Of a stretch of 64,000 nucleotides of DNA, positions 211-36,814 are shown piece after piece. A program made the position numbers and the translations under genes. A model generated the notes under the pieces. That model ran no database searches, had not been told where the DNA came from, and was given only the letters and a program-made list of their open reading frames with translations. This DNA is from Chloropicon primus. Taxonomy: Eukaryota; Chlorophyta; Chloropicophyceae; Chloropicales; Chloropicaceae. Location of the stretch: contig CP060761.1 of NCBI GenBank assembly GCA_023205875.1, forward strand, positions 1 through 64,000. The letters run 5' to 3'. Numbering within the stretch: the first letter of the stretch is position 1; each line of letters begins with the position of its first letter.

Positions 211-216
211 AAACCT

Positions 217-2462: not shown

Positions 2463-5400
2463 CTACTTCTTCTCATTTCTCAACTTGGCAATAGCCTTGA
2501 GCTTCATGCGGGCCTTCTGCCACTCAGGTGCAGCGGTAGTTGTGCTCGTCCTCGATCTTCTGAAAGAATGGAGCTTCTCCACGCTCCTGAGCTTGGAGCG
2601 AGCCTGGTTGATGAGCTTGCAGAAGTCAGACTTCTCATCCGTGGACATGCTGCTGTTGAGCAGAGTTCCTTGCTCGATCTTGTTCAAGCTCTGCTTCAAG
2701 ATATGAAGCTTGTCAGAGGTGAGCTGCTGGGTGTTGCCCTCCTTGCTGACCACCTCATCCTGGCTGTCAACGAGCGTGGTACTCAGCTCCTGCCAGGTGT
2801 GCATCGCAAACTCAAGATCCCTTTCCGTGGTAGTCTCAACGACACTCTGAGAAAGCTGCGAGATGGAAGCTTCAAACTCCTTTCCAAGCAACTCCATGCT
2901 TTCCTCGATACTGCTCTCAGACACGTTTGCGGTCTGCTTCGTGCTTGTGCTGTAAAGAGGGTTGCTGTAAGCAGACGAAGAGATGTTCTTGCTCCTGCCG
3001 TCGTCAAGAAGCTCGCTACCCTCGCCGTCACTTCCTTGTGGCGACTCGGCTATGGATGGCATAATGTTCTCGTCCTCCTCTTCCTTGTCGAACAGAGGGT
3101 TGGACAAGAAAGACATTCTGGCACCAGACTTCATAGCAATCGTGCTCTTCCTGGACTTTCCTCCAGAAAGTCCGAACATAGGGTTCATCAAAAGCATGCT
3201 CTGTCTCGAGTTTGGCTCGGACTTGTTGGATCCCTGGCTCACCGCAGAATACTGGGCGGAGCTTGGAGCAGCATTGCTCTCTCTCTTTCTCTTCTGCCTG
3301 ACGTACACGAAGGCAAGTCCCATCATGCAGCAGACGGCTGCACCGACGATGCCACCGACCATGACCATGGAAACGGAAGCAGTGGAAACCTCGCCCTCGG
3401 CGTCTCCGGTCTCGGACTCGAGCTTTCCGCCTTCCGTCTCCTCGACCTCGGAGGACGTCGTATCGCTTCCGTCGTGCGACTGGCCATCTTCAGAGTCTTG
3501 TCCCTCGCCATCAGAGTTAGAATCTTCATCATCCGTCACAACGCCAGACCCATCTGTCGAGTTCGAGGCTGGAGGTGGTGGCGGCGGCGACAGCTGCTCG
3601 CACCCGCTTGTGGTACAAGACTGGAAGTCCTGCGTGTAAGCACACTCCTTTCCATTGTTTTCGGCTGAGCTGACGATGTTGAAAAGTCTGCATCTAGTGT
3701 AGAGTCCAACGCCGGCATCCAGCTTGCATTCACCGTAGTCAGAGAATTCTCCAACGCAATCCACTGGAGCTCCGCATCCCTGGGAGGAGCACTTGAGCTC
3801 GTTGTGAGTGTAGTCACACTGCGTTCCGTTGTATGCGCTTGGTACAGAAACTTCGTACCTCCTGCACTTGACGTTCTCCTCAGCAATAGTATCGAACCAG
3901 CATCCGCCTTGGTCCATCCATTTGCCAACACAGTCCACTGGCTGAGAGCATTCCTCGTTGGTGCACTGCTTGAGGTTGTCCACGAATGGACAGGCAAAAC
4001 CGTTGTGAGCAGCGTTGGTGCTGATCTTGTAGTGCCTGCACTTCTTGTTCTTGTGGTTCTCCTCATCGTAGAAGCACTCGTCATACTTGTCCCAAGCTCC
4101 GACGCAGTCGACAGGCTGCGTGCAACCGCTCACAGTGCACTGCACATAGCTATCAGCGTATGGGCAAGCATATCCACTGTGGGCAGCAGCTCTCTCAACC
4201 TCGTAGGTGCGGCATCTCTTGTTCTTGTGAGACTCGGCGTCATGGGTGCACACACCATAGTCGCCCCATTGTCCCAAGCAGTCCACTGGCTGGGCGCAGC
4301 CCTCAGTGGTGCACTGCTTGTAGGAGTTCTTGTATGGGCATCCGTAACCGTTGTGTGCGGCACTCGTGCTGACAGAGTAAGTCCTGCACCTCCTGTTCTT
4401 GTGGTCGTTCGTGTCGTGGAAGCAGGCGCCGTAGGCACCCCAGTCTCCAACACAGTCCACAGGCTGCTCGCAGTTCTCTTGCTCGCATTCCACAAGCCCA
4501 TCCTTGAATGGACACTGAGTGCCTCCCAAGTCCGCCTTGGTGCTGACAAGATAGGTTCTGCACCTCTCGTTCTTGTGATCAGCAGCAACGTGGTTGCAGC
4601 TGCCGTACGTAGTCCACTCGCCCTCGCAGTCCACAGGCTGGCCGCAGCCGCTCTTGGTGCATTGCTTGAGCTTGTCCTCGTGTGGGCAAGCAAAACCGTT
4701 GTTGGCGGCAGCCTGGCTCACACTGTACACGCGGCAGCGCTCGTTCTCGTGATCGTTCTCGTCGTAGTGGCAGGCATCGTAGTCACCCCAAGATCCGACG
4801 CAGTCCACAGGCTGGGCGCACTCCTCGGTGGTGCACTGCTCGAACTCGTTGGCGTATGGGCAAGCATAACCGTTGTGAGTCGAAGGCACGGCAACCTTGT
4901 ACAGTCTGCACCTTTTGTTCTTGTGCTCCTCGGTATCGTGGTAGCACTCGGCATACTCGTCCCAGGCTCCGACGCAGTCAACAGGCTGGACGCAGAGCTC
5001 GGTGCTGCACTGGATGTAACTGTCAGTGTATGGGCAAGCATATCCATTGTGGGCAGCAGACCTCTCAACCTCGTAAGTCCTGCACTTCTTGTTCTTGTGA
5101 GAGTCATCATCATGAATGCAAGATCCCCACTTGGACCATTCTCCCAAGCAGTCCACAGGCTGAGAGCAGCCCTCAGTGGTGCACTGCTTGTAGGTGTTCT
5201 TGTATGGGCATCCATAACCGTTGTGGGCGGCAAGGGTGCTGACAACGTAGTGCCTGCACCTCCTGTTCTGGTGATCGTCGCTGTCATGGAAGCAAGAGCC
5301 ATAAGGACCCCAGTCTCCAACACAGTCAACAGGCTGAGAGCAGCTCTGAGTAATACACTCGATCTTGCCGTCCTTGTAAGGACAGTCCTTTCCGTTCAAT

Positions 5401-26400: not shown

Positions 26401-29400
26401 TCCACAGGCTGAGCGCAGCCTACGTTTGTGCACTGCTCAAATTTGTTGGCGTATGGGCAAGCATGGCCACTGTGGGCCGCACTTGTTGTGAGCTTGTACA
26501 ACCTGCACCTCTTGTTCTTGTGGGTTTCGGTGTCATGGCTGCAATCGCCATAAGAATCCCAGGAGCCAACACAATCCACAGGCTGAGCGCAACCAGACTT
26601 GGTGCACTGCTTGTAGTCGTTGGCATACGCGCAGGAATATCCGTTGTGTGCAGAGGTGACTGTGATCTTGTACAATCTGCACCTCGTGTTGGTGTGATCC
26701 TTCGAAACGTAGGAACAGGATCCGTAGGCATCCCAGGCTCCCACGCAGTCCACGGGCTGAGCGCAACCATCGGTGGTGCACTGCTTGTAAGTGTTGACAT
26801 ATGGGCAACCCACACCGTTGTGCGCGGCGTTGGTTGTGATGGCATAAGTCCTGCACCTCCTGTTCTTGTGGTCACTGGTATAGTGCTTGCACGAGCCGTA
26901 GGCACCCCAGTCTCCGGCGCAATCAACAGGCTGAGAGCAGCTGTTGGTCGTGCACTCGACCTTCTGGTCCTCGAATGGGCACTGGACACCGTTCAAGTCA
27001 GCCTTGGTGGTGACCTTGTAAGTCCTGCACCTCTCGTTCTTGTGACTATCCTTAACGTGCTGGCAGGTGCCGTAAGCTCCCCACTCGCCCTCGCAGTCCA
27101 CAGGCTGGCCGCAGCCGCTCTTGGTGCAAGTCCTGAGCTTGTCCTCGTGTGGGCAAGCATAACCGTTGTTGGCGGCAGCTGTGGACACGGCGTAGACACG
27201 GCAGCGCTCGTTCTCGTGGTCAGCCTCCTCGTAGTGGCACTCACCATAAGCTCCCCAAGATCCAACGCAGTCGACAGGCTGGGCACAACCGGTGGCCGTA
27301 CAATCCTCTGCTTCGTTGGCGTAAGGACAGGCCGCACCACCAAACATGCTTGCGACAGAGACCTTGTACAGTCTGCACCTCTTGTTCTTATGCTCATCGG
27401 TGTCATGTTTGCAAGGGCCATAAGGAGCAAAACCTCCTTCACAATCCACAGACTGGAGGCAACCAGTCATCGTGCACTGCACATAGCTGTCAGCGAAGGG
27501 GCAAGTGTAACCGTTGTGAGAAGAGGCTCTCTCGACGGCGTAAGTCCTGCACTTCTGATTCTTGTTCGTCGTCAGATCACGCTCGCACTCAGAGTAGTCA
27601 TCCCAAGCTCCCAAGCAGTCAACCGGCTGGGCGCAGCCCTCGGTGGTGCACTGCTCAAAGGCGTTGGCGTATGGGCAACCGTAACCGTTGCTGGCCTTGT
27701 TGGTGGCGATCTTGTAGACTCTGCACCTCCTGTTCTTGTGGTCCTTGTCGTCATGGAAGCAGGTGCTGTAGACACCCCAGGCTCCAACGCAGTCGACAGG
27801 CTGGGCACAAGTTGCTTTCGTGCACTCCTCCTTGTTATGGGTGTGAGGGCATCCTTTTCCATTGTGCTTGGCCGCGATGCTGACCTTGTACAATCTGCAC
27901 TTTTCGTTCTTGTGACCAGCAGCAACGTGCTTACACGTGCCATAAGAATCCCAAGCACCCACGCAGTCCACAGGCTGAGAGCAAGTGGAAGTGGTGCACT
28001 GCTTGTAGTTGTTCTGCTGTGGGCACTGATAACCGTTGTGCGCAGCTTGAACACTGATCTTGTAGAGCCTGCATTTCTCATTCTTATGACCATCCTTGTT
28101 GTATCCACAGACGTTTCCGTCAGCATGTGTAATCCAAGAATCCCAAGCACCAGCACAGTCCACAGGCTGAGAGCAGCCACCAGTAGTGCAAGACTCGTAC
28201 ATGTTGGCGAAGGGGCATCCATAACCGTTGTTTGCGGCATTGGTTGCCACCTTGTAGTACCTGCACCTCCTGTTCTTGTGGTCAGACGCGGTATGCTTGC
28301 AAGCTCCGTACTCGTCCCAAGAGCCAGCACAGTCCACAGGCTGAGAGCAACCAGACTGGGTGCAAGACTTGTACATGTTGGTGTATGGGCATCCATAACC
28401 GTTGTGGGCTGCCGCGACAGTGATCTTGTAGTGCCTGCACCTCTTGTTCTTGTGGACAGAGGAATCGTGGAAGCAAGCACCATATGGATCCCAGGATCCA
28501 ACACAGTCCACAGGCTGAGAGCAACCAGACTGAGTGCACTGCTTGTACATGTTGGTGTATGGGCACCCATAACCGTTGTTCGCGGCGTTGGTGCTGTACT
28601 TGTAGTGCCTGCACCTCTTGTTCTTGTGGTCCTTTCCATCGTGGTAACAAGATCCATAGGCATCCCAAGCACCGACGCAGTCAACAGGCTGAGCGCATCC
28701 ACCAGTAGTGCACTGCTCAAAGTTGTTCGTGTAGGCACACTTGAAACCGTTGTGGGCAGCAGCAGTGGTGATCTTGTAGTTCCTGCATCTCTTGTTCTTG
28801 TGATTAGAAGCCTCGTGCTTGCACGAGCCATAAGCCCCCCAAGCCCCGACACAGTCCACAGGCTGAGCGCAGCCAGAAGTGGTACAGGACTTGTAGTTGT
28901 TAGCGTATGGGCAAGAATATCCATTGTGGGCGGCATTCTTGCTAATCAGATAGAACCTGCAACGTTCGTTCTTGTGAACGCTTGGCGCAAGAAGAGATCT
29001 CCTCGAGAAAGGCATGGACAAGTCCATTCCATCAGGAGACAACTTCGGGTTCGCAAGATCCAACTTGAGGCCACCAACATACGAGCAAGAACTGTAAGAG
29101 CCCCAAGCACCGACGCAGTCCACAGGCTGAGAGCAACCAGAAGTGGTGCACTGCTTGTACATGTTGGTGTATGGGCATCCGTAACCGTTGTGAGCAACGT
29201 TGGTAGCGATCTTGTAGAACCTGCACTTTCTGTTCTTGTGGTCCTTGGAATCATGCTTGCATGGGCCATATGGATCCCAAGCACCAGCGCAGTCCACAGG
29301 CTGAGAGCAACCAGACTGAGTGCACTGCTCAAAGTTGTTGGTGAATGGGCATCCATAACCGTTGTGAGCGGCGCTCTTTGTGTACTTGTAAGTTCTGCAC

Positions 29401-32400
29401 CTCCTGTTCTTGTGGTCAGAGGCAGTATGCTTACAGGATCCGTAGGCACCCCAGGAGCCAACACAGTCCACAGGCTGAGAGCAACCAGAAGTGGTGCACT
29501 GCTCAAAGTTGTTGGTGTATGGGCATCCATAACCGTTGTGGGCGGCGTTGGTGCTGTACTTGTAGTTTCTGCACCTCCTGTTCTTGTGATCAGAGGCAGT
29601 ATGCTTACAGGACCCGTAGGCACCCCAAGCACCGACGCAGTCCACAGGCTGAGCGCATCCACCAGTAGTGCAGGACACCTGGTTGTTGCTGTGTGGGCAC
29701 GACTTGCCATTAGTTGCTGGAGCTGTGGTGACCTTGTAGGTCTTGCACCTCTCATTCTTGTGACCAGAAGCAACGTGCTTACAAGAGCCATAAGCTCCCC
29801 ACTCGCCTTCGCAATCGACAGGCTGTCCACAACCACTCTTGGTGCAATGTTTCTCCCCATTTGTATGCAAGCAAGCATATCCACTGTTCTTTGTGTTCTG
29901 TGTGATCACAAACGTGCGGCACCTTTCGTTCTCGTGGTCCTTCTCATCGTAGAAGCATGCTCCATAAGAAGCCCAAGCACCAACACAGTCCACAGGCTGG
30001 GAGCAGCCCGACGTGGTGCACTGCTGGAAGTTGTTCGTGTATGCACATCCATAACCGTTGTGGGCAGCGCTCTTCGAAATCTTGTAGTTCCTGCATCGCC
30101 TGTTCTTGTGATCTTCATCATGCTTGCATGAGCTGTATGGATCCCATGCACCGACGCAGTCCACAGGCTGGGAGCAACCAGAAGTGGTGCACTGCTTGAA
30201 CATGTTGGTGTATGCACATCCATAACCGTTGTGGGCAGCGTTGGTAGCGATCTTGTAGAACCTGCACTTTCTGTTCTTGTGGTCAGCAGTGTCGTGCTTG
30301 CATGGGCCATAGTTGTCCCAAGAGCCGGCACAGTCCACAGGCTGAGAGCAACCAGACTGAGTGCACTGCTTGTACATGTTGGTGTATGGGCATCCATAAC
30401 CGTTGTGAGCAGCGTTCGTGCTATACTTGTAGTGCCTGCACCTCCTGTTCTTGTGGTCCTTTCCATCATGATAGCAAGCTGCATATGGACCCCAAGCACC
30501 AGCGCAGTCCACAGGCTGAGAGCAACCAGAAGTGGTGCACTGCTCAAAGTTGTTGGCATATGGGCATCCATAACCGTTGTGAGCGGCGTTGGTGCTGTAC
30601 TTGTAGTTTCTGCACCTCCTGTTCTTGTGGTCAGAGGCAGTATGCTTACAAGACCCGTAGGAACCCCAAGCACCAGCGCAGTCCACAGGCTGAGAGCATC
30701 CACCAGTAGTACACTGCTGGAAGTTGTTGGTGTGTGGGCACCCATAACCGTTGTTCGCAGCGTTGGTGCTCACCTTGTACAACCTGCACCTCCTGTTCTT
30801 GTGGTCAGCAGTGTCGTGCTTGCATGAGCCATAGTCGTTCCATGCACCGACGCAGTCCACAGGCTGAGAGCAACCAGAAGTGGTACAAGACTTGTACATG
30901 TGAGTAAATGGGCATCCATAACCGTTGTAGGCAGAGTTGGTAGTGATCTTGTAGTGCCTGCACTTTCTGTTCTTGTGGTCAGACGCGGTATGCGTGCATG
31001 AACCATATGGGTTCCAGGATCCAACACAGTCCACAGGCTGAGAGCAACCAGACTGAGTGCACTGCTTGTACATGTTGGTGTATGGGCACCCATAACCGTT
31101 GTTCGCGGCGTTGGTGCTGTACTTGTAGTGCCTGCACCTCTTGTTCTTGTGGTCCTTTCCATCGTGGTAACAAGATCCATAGGCATCCCAAGCACCGACG
31201 CAGTCAACAGGCTGAGCGCATCCACCAGTAGTGCACTGCTCAAAGTTGTTCGTGTAGGCACACTTGAAACCGTTGTGGGCAGCAGCAGTGGTGATCTTGT
31301 AGTTCCTGCATCTCTTGTTCTTGTGATTAGAAGCCTCGTGCTTGCACGAGCCATAAGCCCCCCAAGCCCCGACACAGTCCACAGGCTGAGCGCAGCCAGA
31401 AGTGGTACAGGACTTGTAGTTGTTAGCGTATGGGCAAGAATATCCATTGTGGGCGGCATTCTTGCTAATCAGATAGAACCTGCAACGTTCGTTCTTGTGA
31501 ACGCTTGGCGCAAGAAGAGATCTCCTCGAGAAAGGCATGGACAAGTCCATTCCATCAGGAGACAACTTCGGGTTCGCAAGATCCAACTTGAGGCCACCAA
31601 CATACGAGCAAGAACTGTAAGAGCCCCAAGCACCGACGCAGTCCACAGGCTGAGAGCAACCAGAAGTGGTGCACTGCTTGTACATGTTGGTGTATGGGCA
31701 TCCGTAACCGTTGTGAGCAACGTTGGTGCTGTACTTGTAGAACCTGCACTTTCTGTTCTTGTGGTCCTTGGAATCATGCTTGCATGGGCCATATGGATCC
31801 CAAGCACCAGCGCAGTCCACAGGCTGAGAGCAACCAGACTGAGTGCACTGCTCAAAGTTGTTGGTGAATGGGCATCCATAACCGTTGTGAGCGGCGCTCT
31901 TTGTGTACTTGTAAGTTCTGCACCTCCTGTTCTTGTGGTCAGAGGCAGTATGCTTACAGGATCCGTAGGCACCCCAGGAGCCAACACAGTCCACAGGCTG
32001 AGAGCAACCAGAAGTGGTGCACTGCTCAAAGTTGTTGGTGTATGGGCATCCATAACCGTTGTGGGCGGCGTTGGTGCTGTACTTGTAGTTTCTGCACCTC
32101 CTGTTCTTGTGATCAGAGGCAGTATGCTTACAGGACCCGTAGGCACCCCAAGCACCGGCGCAGTCCACAGGCTGAGAGCAACCAGACTGAGTGCACTGCT
32201 GATAGTTGTTGGTGTATGGGCATCCATAACCGTTGTGAGCAGCACTCTTGCTGTAAATGTACTTTCTGCACCTGTAGTTCTTGTGGTCAGAGTTCTGGTG
32301 AAAGCAAGATCCGTAGGAACCCCAAGCACCAGCGCAGTCCACTGGCTGAGAGCAACCAGAAGTTGTGCACTGCTTGTAGTTGTTGGTGTATGGGCATCCA

Positions 32401-35400
32401 TAACCGTTGTTCGCGGCGTTGGTGCTGTACTTGTAGTTTCTGCACCTCCTGTTCTTGTGGTCCTTTCCATCGTGGTAACAAGATCCATAGGCACCCCAAG
32501 CACCGACGCAATTAACAGGCTGAGCGCATCCACCAGTAGTGCAGGACACCTGGTTGTTGCTGTGTGGGCACGACTTGCCATTAGTTGCTGGAGCTGTGGT
32601 GACCTTGTAGGTCTTGCACCTCTCATTCTTGTGACCAGAAGCAACGTGCTTACAAGAGCCATAAGCTCCCCACTCGCCTTCGCAATCGACAGGCTGTCCA
32701 CAACCACTCTTGGTGCAGTGTTTCTCCCCATTTGTATGCAAGCAAGCATATCCACTGTTCTTTGCGTTCTGTGTGATCACAAACCTGCGGCACCTTTCGT
32801 TCTCGTGGTCCTTCTCATCGTAGAAGCATGCTCCATAAGAAGCCCAAGCACCAACACAGTCCACAGGCTGGGAGCAGCCAGACTGAGTGCACTGCTTGTA
32901 GTTGTTGCTGTATGGGCATCCATAACCGTTGTGAGCAGCACTCTTGCTGTACTTGTAGTACCTGCACCTGTAGTTCTTGTGGTCAGAACTCTGGTGGTAA
33001 CAAGAACCGTAGGAACCCCAAGCACCAGCGCAGTCCACAGGCTGGGAGCAACCAGAAGTGGTGCACTGCTTGTAGTTGTTGGTGTATGGGCATCCATAAC
33101 CGTTGTGGGCAGCGCTCTTGCTGTACTTGTAGTACCTGCACCTCCTGTTCTTGTGGTCCTTTCCATCATGATAGCAAGCTGCATAGGAACCCCAAGCACC
33201 AGCGCAGTCCACAGGCTGAGAGCAACCAGACTGAGTGCACTGCTGATAGTTGTTGGCATATGGGCATCCATAACCGTTGTGAGCAGCACTCTTGCTGTAA
33301 ATGTACTTTCTGCACCTGTAGTTCTTGTGGTCAGAGTTCTGGTGAAAGCAAGATCCGTAGGAACCCCAAGCACCAGCGCAGTCCACTGGCTGAGAGCAGC
33401 CAGAAGTTGTGCACTGCTTGTAGTTGTTGTTGTATGGGCATCCCTTTCCACTGTGGGCAGCGTACTTGCTGTACTTGTAGTACCTGCATCTCCTGTTCTT
33501 GTGGTCAGAATCGTGAGCACAAGACCCGTAGGCACCCCAAGCACCAGCGCAGTCCACAGGCTGAGAGCAACCACCAGTAGTGCAAGACACATAGTTGTTT
33601 GTGAAAGGGCATCCATAACCGTTGTGCGCAGCACTCTTGCTGTACTTGTACACCCTGCATCTCTCGTTCTTGTGTCCCATCAAAACATACTTGCAAGAGC
33701 CATAGGCAGCCCAAGCACCAACACAGTCCACAGGCTGAGAGCAGCCAGACTGAGTGCACTGCTTGTAGTTGTTGCTGTATGGGCATCCATAACCGTTGTG
33801 GGCAGCGCTCTTGCCGTACTTGTAGTACCTGCACCTGTAGTTCTTGTGGTCAGAACTCTGGTGGTAACAAGAACCGTAGGAACCCCAAGCACCAGCGCAG
33901 TCCACAGGCTGGGAGCAGCCAGAAGTGGTGCACTGCTTGTAGTTGTTGCTGTATGGGCATCCATAACCGTTGTGGGCAGCGCTCTTGCCGTACTTGTAGT
34001 ACCTGCACCTGTAGTTCTTGTGGTCAGAAACCTGATGGAAGCAAGAGCCATAGGAAGCCCAACCACCAGCACAGTCCACAGGCTGAGAGCAGCCAGAAGT
34101 GGTGCACTGCTTGTAGTTGTTGCTGTATGGGCATCCATATCCACTGTGAGCAGCACTCTTGCTGTACTTGTAGTACCTGCACCTGTAGTTCTTGTGGTCA
34201 GAACTCTGGTGGTAACAAGAACCGTAGGAACCCCAAGCACCAGCACAGTCCACAGGCTGGGAGCAACCAGAAGTGGTGCACTGCTTGTAGTTGTTGCTGT
34301 ATGGGCATCCAGCACCATTGTGAGCAGCGCTCTTGCTGTACTTGTAGTACCTGCACCTGTAGTTCTTGTGGTCAGAACTCTGGTGGTAACAAGAACCGTA
34401 GGAACCCCAAGCACCAGCACAGTCCACAGGCTGGGAGCAACCAGAAGTGGTGCACTGCTTGTAGTTGTTGCTGTATGGGCATCCAGCACCATTGTGAGCA
34501 GCGCTCTTGCTGTACTTGTAGTACCTGCACCTGTAGTTCTTGTGGTCAGAACTCTGGTGGAAGCAAGACCCGTAACCACCCCAAGCACCAACACAGTTCA
34601 CAGGCTGAGAGCAGCCAGAAGTTGTGCACTGCTGATAGTTGTTGCTGTATGGGCATCCATGACCGTTGTGGGCAGCACTCTTGCTGTACTTGTAGTTTCT
34701 GCACCTCCTGTTCGTTGAACCGCTCTTGTGGCAACCTCCATAGGCACCCCAAGCACCAACGCAATTCACAGGTTGGGTACAACCGCTTGTCGTACAACCC
34801 TGATGTCCATGGCCGTACGAGCAACCAGAACCGCCGTGAGCAGGCCAGGTACTGTAACTGTACTTCCTGCAGCGCTGGTTCTTGTGGCCTGAGCTTGTGT
34901 AGTGACAGCTTCCATAGCTACCCCAACTTCCGGCACAGTTCACAGGCTGAGTACAACCGCTGGTGGTACAGGACTGCTGGCCATTGCTGGCTCCACAGCC
35001 GGAACCACCATGGGCAGCGTTCCTCGTCACCTTGTAGCTTCTGCACCTCCTGTTCGTTGAGCCGCTCTTGTGGCAACCTCCATAGCTGCCCCAACTACCG
35101 GCACAGTTCACAGGCTGAGAGCAACCGCTGGTGGTACAGGACTGCTGGCCATTGCTGGCTCCACAGCCCGCACCGCCGTTCTGAGGGTGGACGGTGTACC
35201 TGTAGGTCTTGCACTTTCTGTTTTGGGAGCCAGACTTGTGGCAACCTCCGTATCCAGTCCAGTAACCTTGGCAGGCAACCGCTTTTGGGCAACCGCCCGT
35301 AGTGCAGTCCGCGTGCCAGTTACCGTATGGGCAACCAGGTCCTCCGTTCTGAGCAGAAACAGAGTGCCTGTAGTGCCTGCACTTCTGGCCGCCGCTGCAA

Positions 35401-36266
35401 CCTCCGTAGCTGGTCCAGTAACCTTGGCAGGCCACTGCTTTGGGGCAGCCGGACGTGGAGCAGTCGCCGTGGTAGTTACCGTAAGGGCAACCAGCTCCGC
35501 CGTTCTGGGCGGAGGTGGTGTGCACGTAGTACCTGCACTTCTGACCGCCGCTGCAACCTCCGTAGCTGGTCCAGTACCCCGCGCAGTTCACCGGTTTTGG
35601 GCAACCTGAGCTCGTGCACTGTGATTCTCCAGTTTTCATACACAGAAGATTTCTGCGTGGTGAGCTGGTGACACCACTGAACTCGCTCTCGCTCGCTCCC
35701 TGCAAGTTCCTCCTCCACCTCCCGTAGCTGTACCTGTTGTAGATACTGCTGTACGAGTACCTCGAGGAGTACGAGTACCTGCTGTAGCTATAATATGGAA
35801 TATAATAGCTCGTGGGCGCGACATAGGGCGCGACGTAGGGCGCAACGTAGGGCGCAACGTAAGGCTTTGGTGCAACGTAGGTCGAGGTGTAAGCTCTGCA
35901 CCTCTGGCCTCCGGAGCACGAACCGTACGAGTTCCAGTACCCAGAGCACTGGAGCTGACGTCCCACGCGTCCTTCCTGGTCCGCTTCGGACCAAAGCTCG
36001 AACTTCTCCGCGCTTTCTTCACCCTTCTCGGTACCAAACACTGTTGTATCAGTCAAGGCTGACTCGGTGACGTTCTCGGCGTCACCCGTCTCAGCCTTTC
36101 CTTGCCTCAAGAGGTTTGGGACCACGTCTTGCACAAGATCGTGAGCAGGGCCTGCATGCTTGCTTTCAGGAATAGCGGCAAGCACTAGACCAAGCAAGCA
36201 CCCTGTCACGAGCAAGACGGCAAGAAGGATGGACTTCCTCTCCGAACCAAATCCAAAAGACCTCAT
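2463..36266 (-). CDS. Giant 11,267-residue type I membrane protein with about 184 TSP1-like domains
   Basis: One uninterrupted frame starts at ATG 36266 and ends at TAG 2463. Residues about 10-32 are a hydrophobic signal peptide. A first cysteine-rich unit near residue 105 is followed by APYV and YSRYSYSS low-complexity sequence (about residues 130-185). Then about 184 domains of 58 residues follow, with six cysteines each, in the pattern QPVDCVGAW-x-x-Y-x-x-C, RCR-x-Y, NGxxCP, QCTTxxC. This is the thrombospondin type 1 plan with a single Trp and without the CSxTCG motif. After a PPPPPP and acidic stalk comes one membrane helix (about residues 10965-10988), a KRKRE stop-transfer and a tail of about 280 residues. 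The predicted mass is about 1.2 MDa. A role in adhesion or as a surface coat is inferred from the architecture; no catalytic domain is visible. The array makes collapsed or expanded assembly possible. Confidence 0.9.
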   Translation of the reverse strand: MRSFGFGSERKSILLAVLLVTGCLLGLVLAAIPESKHAGPAHDLVQDVVPNLLRQGKAETGDAENVTESALTDTTVFGTEKGEESAEKFELWSEADQEGRVGRQLQCSGYWNSYGSCSGGQRCRAYTSTYVAPKPYVAPYVAPYVAPYVAPTSYYIPYYSYSRYSYSSRYSYSSIYNRYSYGRWRRNLQGASESEFSGVTSSPRRNLLCMKTGESQCTSSGCPKPVNCAGYWTSYGGCSGGQKCRYYVHTTSAQNGGAGCPYGNYHGDCSTSGCPKAVACQGYWTSYGGCSGGQKCRHYRHSVSAQNGGPGCPYGNWHADCTTGGCPKAVACQGYWTGYGGCHKSGSQNRKCKTYRYTVHPQNGGAGCGASNGQQSCTTSGCSQPVNCAGSWGSYGGCHKSGSTNRRCRSYKVTRNAAHGGSGCGASNGQQSCTTSGCTQPVNCAGSWGSYGSCHYTSSGHKNQRCRKYSYSTWPAHGGSGCSYGHGHQGCTTSGCTQPVNCVGAWGAYGGCHKSGSTNRRCRNYKYSKSAAHNGHGCPYSNNYQQCTTSGCSQPVNCVGAWGGYGSCFHQSSDHKNYRCRYYKYSKSAAHNGAGCPYSNNYKQCTTSGCSQPVDCAGAWGSYGSCYHQSSDHKNYRCRYYKYSKSAAHNGAGCPYSNNYKQCTTSGCSQPVDCAGAWGSYGSCYHQSSDHKNYRCRYYKYSKSAAHSGYGCPYSNNYKQCTTSGCSQPVDCAGGWASYGSCFHQVSDHKNYRCRYYKYGKSAAHNGYGCPYSNNYKQCTTSGCSQPVDCAGAWGSYGSCYHQSSDHKNYRCRYYKYGKSAAHNGYGCPYSNNYKQCTQSGCSQPVDCVGAWAAYGSCKYVLMGHKNERCRVYKYSKSAAHNGYGCPFTNNYVSCTTGGCSQPVDCAGAWGAYGSCAHDSDHKNRRCRYYKYSKYAAHSGKGCPYNNNYKQCTTSGCSQPVDCAGAWGSYGSCFHQNSDHKNYRCRKYIYSKSAAHNGYGCPYANNYQQCTQSGCSQPVDCAGAWGSYAACYHDGKDHKNRRCRYYKYSKSAAHNGYGCPYTNNYKQCTTSGCSQPVDCAGAWGSYGSCYHQSSDHKNYRCRYYKYSKSAAHNGYGCPYSNNYKQCTQSGCSQPVDCVGAWASYGACFYDEKDHENERCRRFVITQNAKNSGYACLHTNGEKHCTKSGCGQPVDCEGEWGAYGSCKHVASGHKNERCKTYKVTTAPATNGKSCPHSNNQVSCTTGGCAQPVNCVGAWGAYGSCYHDGKDHKNRRCRNYKYSTNAANNGYGCPYTNNYKQCTTSGCSQPVDCAGAWGSYGSCFHQNSDHKNYRCRKYIYSKSAAHNGYGCPYTNNYQQCTQSGCSQPVDCAGAWGAYGSCKHTASDHKNRRCRNYKYSTNAAHNGYGCPYTNNFEQCTTSGCSQPVDCVGSWGAYGSCKHTASDHKNRRCRTYKYTKSAAHNGYGCPFTNNFEQCTQSGCSQPVDCAGAWDPYGPCKHDSKDHKNRKCRFYKYSTNVAHNGYGCPYTNMYKQCTTSGCSQPVDCVGAWGSYSSCSYVGGLKLDLANPKLSPDGMDLSMPFSRRSLLAPSVHKNERCRFYLISKNAAHNGYSCPYANNYKSCTTSGCAQPVDCVGAWGAYGSCKHEASNHKNKRCRNYKITTAAAHNGFKCAYTNNFEQCTTGGCAQPVDCVGAWDAYGSCYHDGKDHKNKRCRHYKYSTNAANNGYGCPYTNMYKQCTQSGCSQPVDCVGSWNPYGSCTHTASDHKNRKCRHYKITTNSAYNGYGCPFTHMYKSCTTSGCSQPVDCVGAWNDYGSCKHDTADHKNRRCRLYKVSTNAANNGYGCPHTNNFQQCTTGGCSQPVDCAGAWGSYGSCKHTASDHKNRRCRNYKYSTNAAHNGYGCPYANNFEQCTTSGCSQPVDCAGAWGPYAACYHDGKDHKNRRCRHYKYSTNAAHNGYGCPYTNMYKQCTQSGCSQPVDCAGSWDNYGPCKHDTADHKNRKCRFYKIATNAAHNGYGCAYTNMFKQCTTSGCSQPVDCVGAWDPYSSCKHDEDHKNRRCRNYKISKSAAHNGYGCAYTNNFQQCTTSGCSQPVDCVGAWASYGACFYDEKDHENERCRTFVITQNTKNSGYACLHTNGEKHCTKSGCGQPVDCEGEWGAYGSCKHVASGHKNERCKTYKVTTAPATNGKSCPHSNNQVSCTTGGCAQPVDCVGAWGAYGSCKHTASDHKNRRCRNYKYSTNAAHNGYGCPYTNNFEQCTTSGCSQPVDCVGSWGAYGSCKHTASDHKNRRCRTYKYTKSAAHNGYGCPFTNNFEQCTQSGCSQPVDCAGAWDPYGPCKHDSKDHKNRKCRFYKIATNVAHNGYGCPYTNMYKQCTTSGCSQPVDCVGAWGSYSSCSYVGGLKLDLANPKLSPDGMDLSMPFSRRSLLAPSVHKNERCRFYLISKNAAHNGYSCPYANNYKSCTTSGCAQPVDCVGAWGAYGSCKHEASNHKNKRCRNYKITTAAAHNGFKCAYTNNFEQCTTGGCAQPVDCVGAWDAYGSCYHDGKDHKNKRCRHYKYSTNAANNGYGCPYTNMYKQCTQSGCSQPVDCVGSWDPYGACFHDSSVHKNKRCRHYKITVAAAHNGYGCPYTNMYKSCTQSGCSQPVDCAGSWDEYGACKHTASDHKNRRCRYYKVATNAANNGYGCPFANMYESCTTGGCSQPVDCAGAWDSWITHADGNVCGYNKDGHKNEKCRLYKISVQAAHNGYQCPQQNNYKQCTTSTCSQPVDCVGAWDSYGTCKHVAAGHKNEKCRLYKVSIAAKHNGKGCPHTHNKEECTKATCAQPVDCVGAWGVYSTCFHDDKDHKNRRCRVYKIATNKASNGYGCPYANAFEQCTTEGCAQPVDCLGAWDDYSECERDLTTNKNQKCRTYAVERASSHNGYTCPFADSYVQCTMTGCLQSVDCEGGFAPYGPCKHDTDEHKNKRCRLYKVSVASMFGGAACPYANEAEDCTATGCAQPVDCVGSWGAYGECHYEEADHENERCRVYAVSTAAANNGYACPHEDKLRTCTKSGCGQPVDCEGEWGAYGTCQHVKDSHKNERCRTYKVTTKADLNGVQCPFEDQKVECTTNSCSQPVDCAGDWGAYGSCKHYTSDHKNRRCRTYAITTNAAHNGVGCPYVNTYKQCTTDGCAQPVDCVGAWDAYGSCSYVSKDHTNTRCRLYKITVTSAHNGYSCAYANDYKQCTKSGCAQPVDCVGSWDSYGDCSHDTETHKNKRCRLYKLTTSAAHSGHACPYANKFEQCTNVGCAQPVDCVGSFGAFGTCSYVESDHSNQRCRLYGITQPALNNGYACPHQDKMNQCTKNGCGQPVDCEGQWGAYGSCKHVAHGHKNEKCRTYKVTTKEDLNGKKCPFEDKKVECSTDSCTQPVDCVGDWGAYGACFHDDKDHKNRRCRNYKITTSVAHNGYGCAYANEYKQCTTEGCAQPVDCLGAFGDYGACKHDDDVHKNKKCRTYVVERASSHNGYACPYADSYVQCTTEHCAQPVDCVGTFGDYYSCFYDKDSHKNKRCRFYKITVTPLNDGYACPYEDKFEQCSTNMCSQPVDCVGAWDDYSECSHDENVHKNKKCRTYKVSVVSAHNGNACPYTNELEQCTNDGCAQPVDCVGSWGAYDACHYEEADHENERCRVYSVSQAAANNGYACPHEDKLRTCTKSGCGQPVDCEGEWTSYGSCQHVKDGHKNERCRTYKVTTKADLNGVQCPIADQKVECTTNSCSQPVDCVGDWNSYGACFHDTNDHKNRRCRTYAITTNAAHNGVGCPYVNTYKQCTTEGCTQPVDCLGAFGEYDACMHDDKTHKNKKCRTYAVTRVSSHNGYACAYANEYVQCTVSGCAQPVDCVGAWDSYSSCDHDKDAHKNKRCRLYKISVASANNGYACAYTDKLEQCTTEQCVQPVDCVGAWGNYADCKYVADGHKNERCRLYSITQLELNNGYVCPHKDGLQQCTQNLCSQPVDCEGEWSAYDNCKHVTHGHKNERCRTYKVSVSDAFGGNKCPYEDKKVECTKDQCSQPVDCAGAWGAYGACKHVASSHKNERCRVYAITTNVAHNGFGCAYANAYEQCTTEGCAQPVDCLGAWQEYGACVHDKESHKNKKCRTYVVERASSHNGYTCPYADSYIQCSTNLCTQPVDCVGAWEHYDACKHDKDAHKNKKCRTYKVSVVSAHNGNACPYANKLEQCTNDGCAQPVDCVGSWGAYDACHYEEADHENERCRVYSVSQAAANNGYACPHEDKLRTCTKSGCGQPVDCEGEWTSYGSCQHVKDGHKNERCRTYKVTTKADLNGVQCPIADQKVECTTNSCSQPVDCVGDWNSYGACFHDTNDHKNRRCRTYAITTNAAHNGVGCPYVNTYKQCTTEGCAQPVDCLGAFGEYDACMHDDKTHKNKKCRTYAVTRVSSHNGYACAYANEYVQCTVSGCAQPVDCVGAWDSYSSCDHDKDAHKNKRCRLYKISVASANNGYACAYTDKLEQCTTEQCVQPVDCVGAWGNYADCKYVADGHKNERCRMYSVSQAAANNGYTCPNEDGLTHCTKNGCSQPIDCLGEWSQYSACNHVADGHKNEKCRTYKVSVSDAFNGKVCPFEDKKVECSTDLCSQPVDCVGAWGAYSACKHVASSHKNERCRVYAITTNVAHNGFGCAYANAYEQCTTEGCAQPVDCLGAWQEYGACVHDKESHKNKKCRTYVVSRAVAHNGYACPYADSYIQCSTDMCTQPVDCVGAWDDYSQCSHDDEGHKNQKCRTYKISVQSAHNGISCPFKDKLEQCTKSGCSQPVDCVGAWDSYSSCDHDKDAHKNKRCRLYKISVASANNGYACAYTDKLEQCTTEECSQPVDCVGSWGNYDACHYNKDNHENKRCRMYSVSQAAANNGYTCPNEDGLTHCTTSGCGQPVDCEGEWSQYSACNHVADGHKNEKCRTYKVFVPVSDNGKVCPFEDKKVECTKEQCSQPVDCVGAWGAYSTCFHDDKDHKNRRCRVYAITTNVAHNGFGCPYANAFKQCTTEGCAQPVDCLGAWEEYGACIHDKESHKNKKCRTYVVERASSHNGYTCPYADSYIQCSTNLCTQPVDCVGAWDDYSECSHDEELHKNKKCRTYKVSVESAHNGNACPYTNELEQCTNDGCAQPVDCVGSWSEYGTCMYIDADHENERCRTYVVTRASENNGYACPHEDKLKHCTKSGCGQPVDCEGEWTSYGSCQHVKDGHKNERCRTYKVTTKADLNGVQCPIADQKVECTTNSCSQPVDCVGDWNSYGACFHDTNDHKNRRCRTYAITTNAAHNGFGCAYLNAYKQCTTEGCAQPVDCLGAFGEYDACMHDDKTHKNKKCRTYAVTRVSSHNGYACAYSDSYVQCTVSGCAQPVDCVGAWDEYAECSHDKDAHKNKRCRLYKISVASANNGYACAYTDKLEQCTTEECAQPVDCVGSWGNYDACHYNKDNHENKRCRMYSVSQAAANNGYTCPNEDGLTHCTTSGCGQPVDCEGEWSQYSACNHVADGHKNEKCRTYEVTTKADLNGKVCPFEDKKVECTKDQCSQPVDCVGAWGAYSTCFHDDKDHKNRRCRVYAITTNVAHNGFGCPYANAFKQCTTEGCAQPVDCLGAWEEYGACIHDKESHKNKKCRTYVVERASSHNGYTCPYADSYIQCSTNLCTQPVDCVGAWDDYSECSHDEELHKNKKCRTYKVSVESAHNGHACPYTNELEQCTNDGCAQPVDCVGSWGAYDACHYEEADHENERCRVYSVSQAAANNGYACPHEDKLRTCTKSGCGQPVDCEGAWDPYGSCQHFKDGHKNERCRTYKVTTKADLNGVQCPFEDKKVECTTNSCSQPVDCAGDWGAYGVCFHDSNKHKNLRCRTYIVSTNAAHNGFGCPYVNTYKQCTVEGCEQPVDCLGAWDEYGACAHDEKTHKNKRCRTYNVDRPSAYDGYSCAYADKYVQCTTEECAHPVDCVGAWDEYAECSHDKDAHKNKRCRLYKISVASANNGYACAYTDKLEQCTTEECAQPVDCVGSWGNYDACHYNKDNHENKRCRMYSVSQAAANNGYTCPNEDGLTHCTTSGCGQPVDCEGAWELWSACNHVDAEHKNEKCRTYKVSVPDAFGGNKCPFEDKKVECSTDLCSQPVDCVGDWGAYSTCFHDTSDHKNRRCRVYAITTNVAHNGFGCPYANAYKQCTTEGCAQPVDCLGAWEEYGACIHDKESHKNKKCRTYVVERASSHNGYTCPYADSYIQCSTNLCTQPVDCVGAWDDYSECSHDEELHKNKKCRTYKVSVESAHNGNACPYTNELEQCTNDGCAQPVDCVGSWGAYDACHYEEADHENERCRVYSVSQAAANNGYACPHEDKLRTCTKSGCGQPVDCEGEWSLYGSCFHKEDGHVNERCRTYKVTTVADYSGSQCPFEDQKVECTTNSCSQPVDCVGDWGSYGTCFHDKSDHKNRRCRTYKITTSVAHNGFGCPYTNEYEQCTTDGCAQPVDCIGEWLDYSECVYNGETHSNQKCRRFSVDRKAANNGFECAYADNYYQCTKQTCEQPIDCEGVWQKLDEGRCTYDAVNHENRNCTQYVVTRTLKNSGHACPHTDKYTQCTTEFCDQPVNCVGDWSGYSDCKYDAAGHYNYNCRTYSVSQPALDNGHACPYEDDLQQCFQAGQGERGCDQPVDCEGEWSVYGACKHVEASHKNDRCRTYKVTTSSVHNGKTCPHDDGLVECTTEECSQPVDCVGAWGAYDACFHDVQDHKNRRCRVYAITTNVAHNGFGCAYANAYKQCTTEGCAQPVDCLGAWEEYGACIHDEKDHKNKKCRTYVVSRAVAHNGYTCPYADSYIQCSTNLCTQPVDCVGAWDDYSECYHESELHKNKRCRLYKVTVEPENNGFACLYANDFKQCTTEECAQPVDCVGAWTEYSSCDYLEEGHENERCRVYEVSQPGSNNGFACPHEDKLKQCTKSGCSQPVDCEGEWSVYSACNHVAADHKNEKCRTYKVTTTAFFNGKQCPFEHNKIECNAKTCSQPVDCIGGFSSWGACYLDPKDHKNRRCRTYDITTNAAHNGFGCPYKNAFEECSTEGCAQPVDCVGAWSEYEGCTYDEAVHSNTNCRTYTVTTVGENGGFSCPFANATVQCSKALCLQPVDCVGEFTEFSSCIFKKDEHKNEKCRTYVVERESANNGYTCPYADSYIQCSTNMCNQPVDCVGAWDEYAECYYEKENHKNKRCRTYKVTVASGHNGHACPYTNELEECTNDGCAQPVDCVGSWEEYGECSYEEAEHMNQRCRVYAVTTPAANNGYACPHENKLKHCTKSGCGQPVDCEGDWTLFSSCNHVAHGHKNERCRTYKVAVTANLNGKACPIADQKVECTTNSCSQPVDCVGDWNSYGACFHDTNDHKNRRCRTYAITTNVAHNGVGCPYTNTYKQCTTEGCTQPVDCVGAWSEYTECTHDVDAHKNKKCRTYVVSRASSHNGYTCPYADSYVQCSTDMCDQPVDCVGAWDEYSQCKYVEDLHANDRCRVFKVSTPEANNGHKCLHPHNITECTMSECSQPVDCLGSWTEYGACNYESLDHENERCRMYNVTRVAEYNGMQCLHKDQERHCTKGGCGQPVDCEGEWGLYSPCMHNPDTHENEQCRQYKVTTESDLSGKKCPHEHDLVECVQDKCQQPVDCVGAWNSYGACFHDNSDHKNRRCRSYNISTFDDFSGYACPYANEFEQCTTEGCAQPVDCLGAWTEYDACVHDEESHKNKKCRTYVVSRAVAHNGYTCPYADSYIQCSTELCTQPVDCVGAWEEYAECNYDTENHKNKRCRLYKVTVPAAHSGYACPYTNTLKQCTSEGCAQPVDCVGGWSDYSKCEYDEGDHENERCREYVISQPAANGGYSCPHVEAAVQCTKSGCGQPVNCEGEWSLYTSCEYVAKEHKNERCRTYKVITKADLGGNQCPFEDEKVECTTNSCSQPVDCVGDWGSYGTCFYDDMHHKNRRCRTYVVATNAAHNGVGCPYTDKYEQCTVEGCAQPVDCLGAWTDYDACVYDKEAHKNKKCRTYEVERAVAHSGYACPYTDSYVQCTFEGCTQPVNCVGAWDEYGTCFHDKDSHQNKRCRLYKVSVPAASEGYACPYADKLEQCTTEECAQPVDCVGAWGVYSECKYVADDHANERCRVYSISQIALNNGYDCPYEDSLTQCTNVGCGQPIDCEGEWGSWDSCAYVAGEHINQKCRTYSISTEAHLHGTECPYEDKKVECTKDQCSQPVDCVGAWGAYDACFHDVQDHKNRRCRVYAITTDVAHNGVGCPYANAYKQCTTEGCTQPVDCLGAWEEYGACIHDEKDHKNKKCRTYVVSRASSHNGYTCPYADSYIQCSTSLCTQPVDCVGAWDEYAECYHDEEAHENKRCRLYKVTVASGHNGFACPYADKLEQCTNDGCAQPVDCVGSWGAYGECSYEVSDHENERCRVYEVSQPALNNGYACPHEDKLRTCTKSGCGQPVDCEGEWSLYGSCEHVADGHKNERCRTYKVTTVKDFGGKACPFEDKKIECTTNSCSQPVDCVGDWGSYGACFHDDDDHKNRRCRTYAITTNAAHNGFGCAYLNAYKQCTTEGCAQPVDCLGAWTEYDACIYDKDMHKNKKCRTYEVERAVAHSGYACPYADMYIQCSTDLCDQPVDCVGAWDDYAECFHDEDAHKNKRCRLYKVSVAAAHNGYACPYANELEQCTNDGCAQPVDCVGAWDNYGACLYKDNEHENERCRVYSVSQKALNNGYTCPYEDKHKHCTKSGCGQPVDCVGAWESYSSCKHVEAGHKNERCRTYVVNTEAALGGTECPFEDKKVECTTEECSQPTDCVGAWGAYDACFHDVQDHKNRRCRVYAITTDVAHNGYGCAYANAYKQCTTEGCAQPVDCLGAWEQYGACVHDEKDHKNKKCRTYVVSRASSHNGYTCPYADSYIQCSTELCTQPVDCVGAWDDYSECYHDKEAHDNKKCRTYTVAVESAHNGIACAFEDKLEQCTTVDCAQPVDCVGAWDNFSQCTHDEEAHKNKKCRTYKISVASANNGHACPYTHELEQCSLEECSQPVDCVGAWSHYGDCKYVSEGHENERCRVYTISQTALHNGYECPHTHNLNHCTKSGCGQPIDCEGEWSAWDSCTHVDGQHKNQKCRSYKISADSGLGGQECPHKDGLVECSTDECSQPIDCVGAWGAYSACAHDKEDHKNRRCRVYAISTNVAHNGFGCPYANAYKQCTTEGCAQPVDCLGAWGTYGDCVHDDDTHKNKKCRTYVVSRASAHNGFTCPYADSYVQCSTELCVQPVDCVGAWDDYSDCFHNKEVHDNKRCRLYKISVAATNNGYACPYTDKLEQCTTEECAQPVDCVGAWSEYAACEYLKHSHENERCRVYEVSQPALNNGFVCPHEDKLRTCTKSGCGQPVDCEGEWSLYGSCEHVADGHKNEKCRTYKVITDADLNGKACPFEDKKIECTTNSCSQPVDCVGAWGAYDTCFHDSNKHKNLRCRVYAIATDAASNGVGCPYLNAYKQCTTEGCEQPVDCVGAWSEYDACIHDDQTHKNKKCRTYVVSRPAAHSGYACAYADNYGQCTSEGCAQPVDCVGAWDKYAACFNDAEAHNNKRCRLYKISVAATNNGYACPYANELEQCTTEECAQPVDCVGTWGDYEPCHYNSKEETNERCRMYSVTQVALNDGYTCPFEHDERQCMTGGCGQPVDCEGAWTTYDACKHVEDGHKNDHCRTYKVVTPASLNGKLCPHLNGLVECTTDDCTQPVDCVGDWEAYGACFHDDADHKNRRCRNYKIATAASHNGYGCAYANAYKQCTTEGCAQPVDCLGAWEQYGACTHDDKTHKNKKCRTYAVSRAAAHSGYACPYADSYQQCTVSGCTQPVDCEGDWDIYGSCYYDKDTHKNKRCRLYKVRVFATHNGYACPYRNEYKQCTVDECPQPVDCVGAWGAYDACHYENYEHENERCRVYSVLQSALNNGYACPHADQLKQCTKSGCGQPVDCEGEWSEYGNCNHVEDGHKNERCRAYKVTTVPDLGGKQCPHLNGLVECESSTCTQPVDCVGDWGEYGMCYHDDQDHKNRRCRNYIVSTDVAHNGFGCPYANAYKQCTTEGCAQPVDCLGQWGSYTDCVYNENQHTNSRCRTYVVERAAAHMGYACAYTDSYVQCTVSGCAQPIDCVGAWDEYDECFHDEELHKNKRCRLYKVSVPSAFNGYACPYANELEQCTTDKCSQPVDCVGAWQAYGVCSHNDLHHHNERCRVYAVTTPAVNSGYACPHEDKLQQCTKSGCGQPVDCQGEWTSFDSCKHVDDTHVNERCRTYEVNTSPALNGKDCPYKDGKIECITQSCSQPVDCVGDWGPYGSCFHDSDDHQNRRCRHYVVSTLAAHNGYGCPYKNTYKQCTTEGCSQPVDCLGEWSKWGSCIHDDDSHKNKKCRTYEVERSAAHNGYACPYTDSYIQCSTELCVQPVDCVGAWDEYAECYHDTEEHKNKRCRLYKVAVPSTHNGYACPYANEFEQCTTEECAQPVDCVGSWGDYDACHYDENDHENERCRVYSVSQAAANNGFACPHEDKLKQCTKSGCGQPVDCEGEWTTYGSCNHVAADHKNERCRTYLVSTKADLGGTQCPFKDGLVECEQENCEQPVDCVGDWGAYGACFHDTNDHKNRRCRTYSVSTSAAHNGYGCPYKNSYKQCTTEGCAQPVDCLGQWGDYGVCTHDAESHKNKRCRTYEVERAAAHSGYACPYADSYVQCTVSGCTQPVDCVGAWDKYDECFYDEENHKNKKCRHYKISTNAAHNGFACPFVDNLKQCTNEECSQPVDCVGKWMDQGGCWFDTIAEENVKCRRYEVSVPSAYNGTQCDYTHNELKCSSQGCGAPVDCVGEFSDYGECKLDAGVGLYTRCRLFNIVSSAENNGKECAYTQDFQSCTTSGCEQLSPPPPPPASNSTDGSGVVTDDEDSNSDGEGQDSEDGQSHDGSDTTSSEVEETEGGKLESETGDAEGEVSTASVSMVMVGGIVGAAVCCMMGLAFVYVRQKRKRESNAAPSSAQYSAVSQGSNKSEPNSRQSMLLMNPMFGLSGGKSRKSTIAMKSGARMSFLSNPLFDKEEEDENIMPSIAESPQGSDGEGSELLDDGRSKNISSSAYSNPLYSTSTKQTANVSESSIEESMELLGKEFEASISQLSQSVVETTTERDLEFAMHTWQELSTTLVDSQDEVVSKEGNTQQLTSDKLHILKQSLNKIEQGTLLNSSMSTDEKSDFCKLINQARSKLRSVEKLHSFRRSRTSTTTAAPEWQKARMKLKAIAKLRNEKK
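3900..27200 (-). repeat. Higher-order repeat: five-domain, 870-bp blocks
   Basis: The same domain junction (CCCTCGCAGTCCACAGGCTG or close variants) recurs at 4621, 5491, 6361, 7231, 8101 and 8971, exactly 870 bp apart. It recurs again at 10885, 11755, 12625, 13495 and 14365, and at 18040, 18910, 19780, 20650 and 21520. The 1044-bp gaps 8971-10015 and 14365-15409 mean one extra domain in that block. The five types can be told apart by CEGEW, CVGDWG with KNRRCR, CLGAW with KNKKCR, CVGAWD with KNKRCR, and CVGSW with ENERCR. Confidence 0.9.
28490..32879 (-). repeat. Recent tandem duplication of an in-gene block (about 1.5 kb)
   Basis: The block at about 28490-30008 reappears nearly identical at about 31013-32879, offset by 2523 bp (841 codons). 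The second copy contains two additional domains (348 bp), so that after about 29650 the offset becomes 2871 bp. Both copies share an unusual loop of about 30 residues inside one domain (LKLDLANPKLSPDG then SRRSLLAPS), which marks them as one duplication. Confidence 0.88.
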
Positions 36267-36743: not shown

Positions 36744-36814
36744 ACACATAAGACATAAGACATAAGACATAAGACATAAGACATAAGACATAAGACATAA
36801 GACATAAGACATAA
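36744..36814. repeat. Heptamer minisatellite (ACATAAG)n
   Basis: About ten uninterrupted copies of the 7-base unit AGACATA/ACATAAG. It lies about 480 bases upstream of the giant gene start. No function is evident. Confidence 0.95.

Follow-up and report, generated by a model that had tools for sequence, protein, structure and literature searches.

The first 64,000 bases (the window) of contig CP060761.1 (C8; 860,321 bases) of the green alga Chloropicon primus carry, at positions 2463-36266 on the minus strand, a gene for a protein of 11,267 residues (protein A). By profile comparison, protein A is an array of 184 six-cysteine units of a divergent thrombospondin type 1 repeat (TSR; TSP1 in Pfam), placed between a signal-peptide-like start and a single membrane segment with a cytoplasmic tail. 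The units of the inner part of the array recur in a fixed order of five, and their net charge falls from basic at the outer end to acidic near the membrane. Protein A is most likely a giant type I surface protein acting as a membrane tether or adhesin that reaches through the cell wall, a role to which, on its sequence, about an even chance is given.

Architecture of protein A and nature of its unit

The gene runs from ATG to stop over 11,267 codons with zero internal stops, and the calculated product has a mass of 1,248 kDa and an isoelectric point of 6.25. The single open frame of 33.8 kb, the signal-like start, the about 184 six-cysteine domains, the roughly 1,100 cysteines, and the one membrane helix with its cytoplasmic tail, which an initial annotation had read from the letters of the window, are all borne out. 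Only two segments of protein A reach a 19-residue hydropathy mean of at least 1.4, namely residues 14-32 (maximum 2.84, for the span starting at residue 14) and residues 10969-10987. By hydropathy, protein A is thus predicted to be of single-pass type I membrane architecture, with an N-terminal signal, one C-terminal helix and a cytoplasmic tail of 278 residues. Tiling of residues 103-10890 with a profile that drew on 261 distinct units from protein A and its paralogues gave 184 units, all with exactly six cysteines, 171 of them 58 residues long and 166 distinct in sequence. The protein contains 1,108 cysteines, of which 1,104 (953 TGC and 151 TGT) belong to the array. Non-standard cysteine spacing was found in 13 of the 184 units; nine of these alter only the loop between the second and third cysteines (the C2-C3 loop) and four alter another spacing. 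The C2-C3 loop is the sole variable spacing in 180 of the 184 units, and inserts also sit there.

The TSR superfamily is described in PMC9198472 as comprising domains of 50-60 residues with six conserved cysteines, and the units of protein A agree with this in length and cysteine number. The unit profile aligned by hhalign with canonical TSP1 domains at 97.1% probability (E 7.2e-11, 52 columns), against at most 1.14% for 20 column-permuted controls and 0.39% for one reversed control; the 27 canonical domains were cut, by a pattern requiring the canonical cysteines, from two proteins (P0007 and P0009) that had themselves surfaced in a search with paralogue C. In Pfam scans of three pieces of protein A (3,430 of the 11,267 residues), the summed TSP1_spondin scores were 139.6 bits (a 1,000-residue piece), 101.2 bits and 25.6 bits (the N-terminal piece), so that two of the three passed the whole-protein cut-off of 41 bits, whereas the best single array domain, at 29.4 bits, stayed below it. 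No LDLrA or EGF module was found in these three pieces, and the remaining array consists of the same six-cysteine unit. The only other Pfam match above its cut-off there, Fe-ADH_2 (32.6 bits, cut-off 28), was rejected as a composition artefact, as no stretch passed alone. A PDB sequence search with a two-domain query gave a weak match to F-spondin (1szl, E 0.019). Matches of the unit profile to complex I and snaclec structures were rejected as chance.

The unit shares with the TSR families (Pfam TSP1_spondin PF19028 and TSP_1 PF00090) a length of about 58 residues, six cysteines, a Trp near the start, a GG/NG-x-x-C-P motif and the 52 aligned columns, but differs from them in several respects. 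C-x-x-S/T-C, the O-fucose signal of TSRs (PMC9198472), which is carried by a subset of them, has zero occurrences in proteins A, B and C. W-x-x-W/C, the C-mannose signal according to the same source and frequent but not universal in TSRs, occurs 10 times over the 184 units of protein A, which departs from the C-mannosylation motif of canonical TSRs. Trp stands at unit position 9 in 174 of the units, and the second aromatic residue, at position 12, is Tyr in 171. In group 2 TSRs the third cysteine is reported to lie three residues past the second, both within C-x-x-S/T-C (PMC9198472), whereas the C2-C3 spacing in protein A is 11 in most units and never less than 5. The third cysteine of the unit is not aligned with that of TSP1 and falls instead at the first Arg of the Arg stretch in the TSP1 profile. 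The TSP1-like character named in the initial annotation therefore stands, but a canonical TSP1 domain is not present: by these comparisons, the unit is a divergent TSP1-like branch.

Order, exchange and charge along the array

Identity and clustering analyses took six-cysteine units of at most 64 residues. In units 60-184 of protein A, the identity between units is 0.48-0.51 at lags 1-4, 0.64 at lag 5, and 0.75 and 0.63 at lag 10 (for the two halves), with the peaks falling at multiples of five. Counted from unit 45 onwards, the expected cluster-to-cluster steps a-d, d-c, c-b, b-e and e-a number 23, 20, 22, 21 and 23, respectively. Paralogue B shows the same a-d-c-b-e order, with loop inserts in many of the units at the e place. 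These inserts end in RRSLL or RRALL, and the loop of one unit of B holds six further cysteines. Direct comparison of diagonals revealed 21 near-identical block pairs in protein A, of up to 1,245 bp (97% identity), five of which are shifted by 1,740 bp, or 10 units. Paralogue B has 107 such pairs, and its longest covers 3,369 bp with 99% identity and is shifted by 1,914 bp, or 11 units; the block duplications of B are very recent. The nearest copy lies 10 units away for 34 of 171 units of protein A. The median nearest-copy identity of these 171 units is 88%, which suggests an old age for much of the array. Its length appears to change through exchange of single whole units and of blocks of several units, ten domains being the commonest offset between nearest copies. 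The last 14 units of P0010 map to units 171-184 of protein A with 13 of 14 in register, but only one of its first seven units is in register. P0005 tracks paralogue B in part of the outer units and at the end, without the expanded middle, which may be due to metagenome collapse.

The initial annotation had taken the unbroken frame as a sign of selection on the protein. The frame alone is no proof of this and its openness is weak evidence, because the opposite strand also holds frames of up to 1,870 residues; the retained cysteines, the nonsynonymous to synonymous ratio (pN/pS) and the collinear relative P0010 support selection better. The plus-strand frames (window 2568-34718, nine in the complementary register) were rejected as genes and are regarded as codon-usage artefacts, since the sense codons TTA, CTA and TCA, which give stops in the complementary register, are scarce in the giant gene (0, 1 and 17 occurrences). 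The pN/pS estimate took in the 58-residue units (171 of 184 in A and 100 of 123 in B) and used plain counting on nearly saturated sites; between units of protein A the values range from 0.43 to 0.71 over six bins, with 0.43 at lag 5, and suggest selection that is purifying on average. Synonymous differences are common, 12,286 of the 14,535 unit pairs falling into bins of mean pS 0.53 and 0.67. Constraint shows most strongly in the cysteines of the array: none of the 1,104 is lost, although the codon is TGT rather than TGC in 151 cases.

Net charge per unit (K+R-D-E) starts at +5.0 over the ten outermost units of protein A and declines to about -3 over roughly the last hundred, and the number of Tyr per unit declines from 7.0 to 3.5. 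Some 40 domains at the outer end are basic and rich in Tyr, and the membrane-proximal part is acidic. The trend was compared with block shuffles (2000 each) in 11 proteins, with units of fewer than four cysteines dropped: eight long array proteins, the fragment P0017 and, as controls, two canonical TSP1 proteins. The rank correlation of charge with position, followed by the number of shuffles reaching it, is -0.72 (0) for A, -0.61 (0) for B, -0.77 (2) for C, -0.72 (0) for P0005, -0.66 (6) for P0003, -0.58 (20) for P0006, -0.44 (43) for P0002 and -0.33 (67) for P0004. The trend is thus negative in all eight long array proteins, which are not independent because of shared descent, and positive in the canonical TSP1 controls (+0.38 and +0.51). 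P0008, another TSP1-like protein, gave +0.66 (without shuffles). The outer third is basic in A, B, C and P0005, and slightly so in P0006.

Relatives, cytoplasmic tail and locus

Three paralogues (B, C and D; Table 1) are encoded in this genome, and related environmental proteins keep the tail. Protein searches with paralogue C and with the tail region of A, which scored the 8,000 candidates sharing most words, returned nine and eight proteins, respectively. Paralogue C is 100% identical to the C. primus hypothetical protein A3770_18p81450 of NCBI, whose tag we take to denote strain CCMP1205, and the environmental proteins P0002-P0004 are 49-59% identical to it. P0005, the relative of paralogue B, has 2,938 residues and 40 units, and the environmental protein P0014 only about 11 units. 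For giant homologues, 5.77 billion proteins were searched with a 10,000-residue piece of A, of which the last 1,000 residues (the tail region) were scored; none was found at E 0.001 among 394 candidates of 5,500-17,500 residues. Viral contigs searched with paralogue C gave no match. P0008 and P0009 contain tandem TSP1-like domains of other kinds; the units of P0008 start much like PVDCVGTW, yet their second and third cysteines lie close together. A subtilase (Peptidase_S8) with two canonical TSP1 domains is encoded at C8:613207-616047 on the minus strand, so that canonical TSRs occur in this genome next to the variant ones.

In a tree of 11 tails, A groups with P0010 and P0015 (support 99), B with P0005 (100) and C with P0002-P0004 (80), while P0006 and D stand apart; the duplications leading to A, B and C therefore seem to be older than the split between these lineages. 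Each of the 11 tails carries at least three NP motifs, and 10 have a YxxPhi-type motif within the first 40 residues. In an alignment of nine tails, the three aligned NP motifs and LNKIEQ are invariant (9/9), as is most of the INQAR-KLR stretch. The tail of paralogue C is 87, 75 and 65% identical to those of P0002-P0004, compared with 58, 50 and 53% for the remainder of the protein. YxxPhi and NPx(F/Y) motifs in cytoplasmic tails have a sorting or adaptor-binding meaning. A Pfam scan of nine members of the tail family gave weak matches only (best E 0.0018, to one family in three of the nine), and the match for the tail of protein A lies below its cut-off; a PDB sequence search with the tail returned nothing below E 0.14. 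Tryptophan hydroxylase structures among the PDB matches were rejected as chance. By Pfam and PDB sequence comparison, the tail region would thus belong to no known family, and no description of it was found.

The genome assembly comprises 17,584,162 bases in 20 contigs. The assembly of C. primus RCC138 is reported to derive from Nanopore reads polished with Nanopore and Illumina data (PMC12301720). CCTAA-type repeats at the start of the window, identified by the telomere unit given in PMC6731263 and PMC12301720, together with the contig end, make the giant gene the first large gene from the chromosome end. A subtelomeric tandem repeat of 198 bp (3.5 copies, 96% identity) lies at window 217-910, and a perfect array of 10 copies of the heptamer ACATAAG at window 36746-36816, upstream of the giant gene. 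Scans of the whole 64-kb window for Rfam families and tRNAs were empty. On the minus strand at 55492-58416, this green algal nuclear chromosome carries a gene with the architecture of a class A penicillin-binding protein (transglycosylase and transpeptidase), which possibly serves plastid peptidoglycan.

Table 1. Features of the giant gene, its chromosome end and its paralogues (window positions unless a contig is named; residues are those of protein A)
Feature	Position	Strand	Remarks
Degenerate CCTAA-type telomere-like repeats	1..212	n/a	Chromosome end adjoining the giant gene
Signal-peptide-like N-terminus, residues 1-30	36177..36266	-	Basic n-region, hydrophobic core; from sequence and hydropathy, not a dedicated cleavage predictor
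N-terminal linker, residues 31-102	35961..36176	-	From sequence; array begins at residue 103
Array of 184 six-cysteine TSP1-like units, residues 103-10890	3597..35960	-	Cys spacing 9-11-15-8-4 in 171 of 184
Five-domain superrepeat, units 60-184, order a-d-c-b-e, 870 bp	3597..25367	-	Lag-five identity peaks, cluster string, transitions
Unit with C2-C3 loop 30 residues longer, containing RRSLL, residues 1539-1626	31389..31652	-	
Second copy of the RRSLL long-loop unit, residues 2380-2467	28866..29129	-	Identical over 264 of 264 bases
Juxtamembrane SPPPPPP and acidic Ser/Asp/Glu stalk, residues 10891-10968	3363..3596	-	
Single membrane segment, residues 10969-10987	3306..3362	-	Hydropathy 2.23
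Cytoplasmic tail, 278 residues	2466..3299	-	C-terminal conserved LNKIEQ...INQAR.KLR region; tail alignment
YSAV, YxxPhi-type motif near the membrane	3240..3251	-	Such a motif in 10 of 11 tails
NPMF, first aligned NP motif	3174..3185	-	
NPLF, second aligned NP motif	3090..3101	-	
NPLY, third aligned NP motif	2952..2963	-	
Paralogue B, 8,274 residues, 123 units	C8:74849-99673	-	Same genome; about 38.6 kb from the giant gene
Paralogue C, 2,522 residues, about 35 units	C18:158006-165574	+	Same genome
Paralogue D, 638 residues	C20:267349-269265	-	Two degenerate domains with long SPPPPP stretches between, membrane helix, related tail

Proposed function and comparison with known proteins

The 184 domains would form an extended cable anchored in the plasma membrane. 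A TSP1 domain contributes a rise of 4-5.5 nm; if the units here extend alike, the chain would be roughly 0.7-1 micrometre long, on a cell of 2-4 micrometres. The basic outer part may bind polyanionic polysaccharides of the wall or secreted ones, or the acidic stalks of neighbouring molecules, and the cable would tie the thin layered wall to the membrane or make cells adhere to one another and to surfaces. The tail, with its YxxPhi motif, three NP motifs and conserved C-terminal region, could link the cable to adaptors that serve sorting, recycling or attachment to the cytoskeleton. The SPPPPP motif is linked to hydroxyproline-rich glycoproteins (HRGPs), and the SPPPPP stretches of paralogue D suggest a hydroxyproline-rich wall setting. 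HRGP walls are described in PMC10762512. The class of Chloropicon is characterized in PMC5656628 by walled coccoid cells of 2-4 micrometres without flagella, with a thin, delicate, layered wall of smooth surface, in keeping with the tiny alga of the initial annotation; among the coat, adhesin, mating and prey-binding roles that the latter had offered, prey capture is therefore the least supported. Several observations weigh against the tether or adhesin. The PDB profile search with the unit alignment found no TSP1 structure. The charge trend is weaker in P0002 and P0004, and the outer thirds of P0002, P0003 and P0004 are still acidic (-2.2, -1.3 and -3.3), only to a lesser degree; fragments are mixed, with correlations from -0.87 to -0.01 in P0010-P0016 (without shuffles) and +0.14 in the N-terminal fragment P0017. 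The tail of paralogue D is the one among 11 that has no YxxPhi motif. The sorting motifs of the tail are short, and their meaning in green algae is putative.

An endocytic or scavenger-type receptor is a rather unlikely alternative, in which the array would capture organic matter, metals or vesicles and the YxxPhi and NPx(F/Y) tail would drive uptake in the manner of LDL-receptor-like proteins. The number of NP motifs and the membrane-near YxxPhi motif in nearly all tails agree with it, as does the better conservation of the tail among the orthologues of paralogue C. However, a wall restricts the access of large ligands, the length is far above the apparent need for capture, the reading of the motifs is putative, and homologous LDLrA and EGF ectodomain modules were not found in the scanned pieces. 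A role in sexual agglutination or cell-cell recognition, in which lineages would differ in the length and order of the array, is distinctly unlikely. The contrast in length between paralogue B and its relative P0005, the subtelomeric position of the giant gene and the putative MID genes marked for C. primus in PMC6731263 speak for it; sexual reproduction is given as unknown in the class in PMC5656628, P0005 may be a collapsed assembly, and paralogue C does not differ at all from A3770_18p81450.

Cleavage of the ectodomain at dibasic RRSLL, RRNLL or RRALL loops, with assembly of the shed product into mucilage or wall, is very unlikely. RR(S/N/A)L sites number four in A, 15 in B and three in C and, besides two N-terminal sites per protein, lie in C2-C3 loops, and the subtilase with canonical TSP1 domains is encoded in the same genome. 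Past the first unit, however, the array of protein A has only two loop sites, at residues 1581 and 2422 of 11,267, so that most of the array would stay attached, and to read the motif as a processing site is speculative. It is highly improbable that the array is a largely neutral expansion or an assembly artefact and that the true allele is shorter or broken. The subtelomeric location, the near-identical blocks in A and B and the small number of units in P0014 would fit such an origin, but the Nanopore assembly was polished with Illumina reads (PMC12301720), no frame break occurs over the 11,267 codons, the nearest copies are at a median of only 88% with 166 of 184 units distinct, and P0010 keeps nearly all of its last 14 units in register. 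In addition, P0014 has a tail in common with P0010 and P0013 but differs upstream, which suggests a collapse in P0014 rather than in A.

The tether or adhesin resembles several known proteins in part. SCO-spondin of vertebrates is likewise a giant extracellular protein with many TSRs, but it is secreted and its 27 TSRs are mixed with LDLrA, TIL, vWF-D and other domains, according to PMC8487547. Protein A, in contrast, repeats one domain 184 times and is anchored in the membrane. The TRAP/MIC2-type adhesins of Apicomplexa are likewise type I membrane proteins that combine TSRs with a short tail, but their TSRs are few and accompanied by vWA domains, and the tail is a different one. Tails of the LDL-receptor family and of integrins carry NPxY-type motifs, as does that of protein A, for which no convincing Pfam or PDB match exists. 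Pherophorins and other HRGP wall proteins of volvocine algae have SPPPPP stretches in common with paralogue D and, briefly, with the stalk of A, but A is membrane anchored. A3770_18p81450, with about 35 units, is far shorter than A and is annotated as hypothetical. Larger green algal proteins exist, such as the polyketide synthases of up to 22,244 residues reported in PMC6681478. No paper pairing Chloropicon with thrombospondin was found in the literature searched, and the words 'thrombospondin' and 'giant' are absent from the main text of the genome papers PMC6731263 and PMC12301720. What would be new here is an array of this size made of a variant TSR and joined to a tail without a known family.

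It is tentatively possible that these proteins, known so far only from Chloropicon and environmental relatives, form a new class of surface cable, a charge-polarised TSR-variant chain on the micrometre scale with its own disulfide layout and five-domain superunits. Basic outer ends would pair with the acidic stalks of neighbours in self-assembly of the thin layered wall, the tail, for which no family is known, would join the cable to the inside of the cell, and the paralogues (about 35, 123 and 184 domains) would set the reach like rulers.

The run of 184 TSP1-like units compares with 27 TSRs in SCO-spondin, and we know of no longer TSR run, although no census was made. A single gene of 34 kb is costly for a picoplanktonic alga whose genome is compact. 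Should all array cysteines pair, each molecule would contain 552 disulfides, a stringent test of folding in the endoplasmic reticulum. The shared charge trend and the five-domain order amount to a testable claim on the patterning of a polymer-like protein, and the tail family may provide a handle on wall-to-cytoplasm coupling in green algae.

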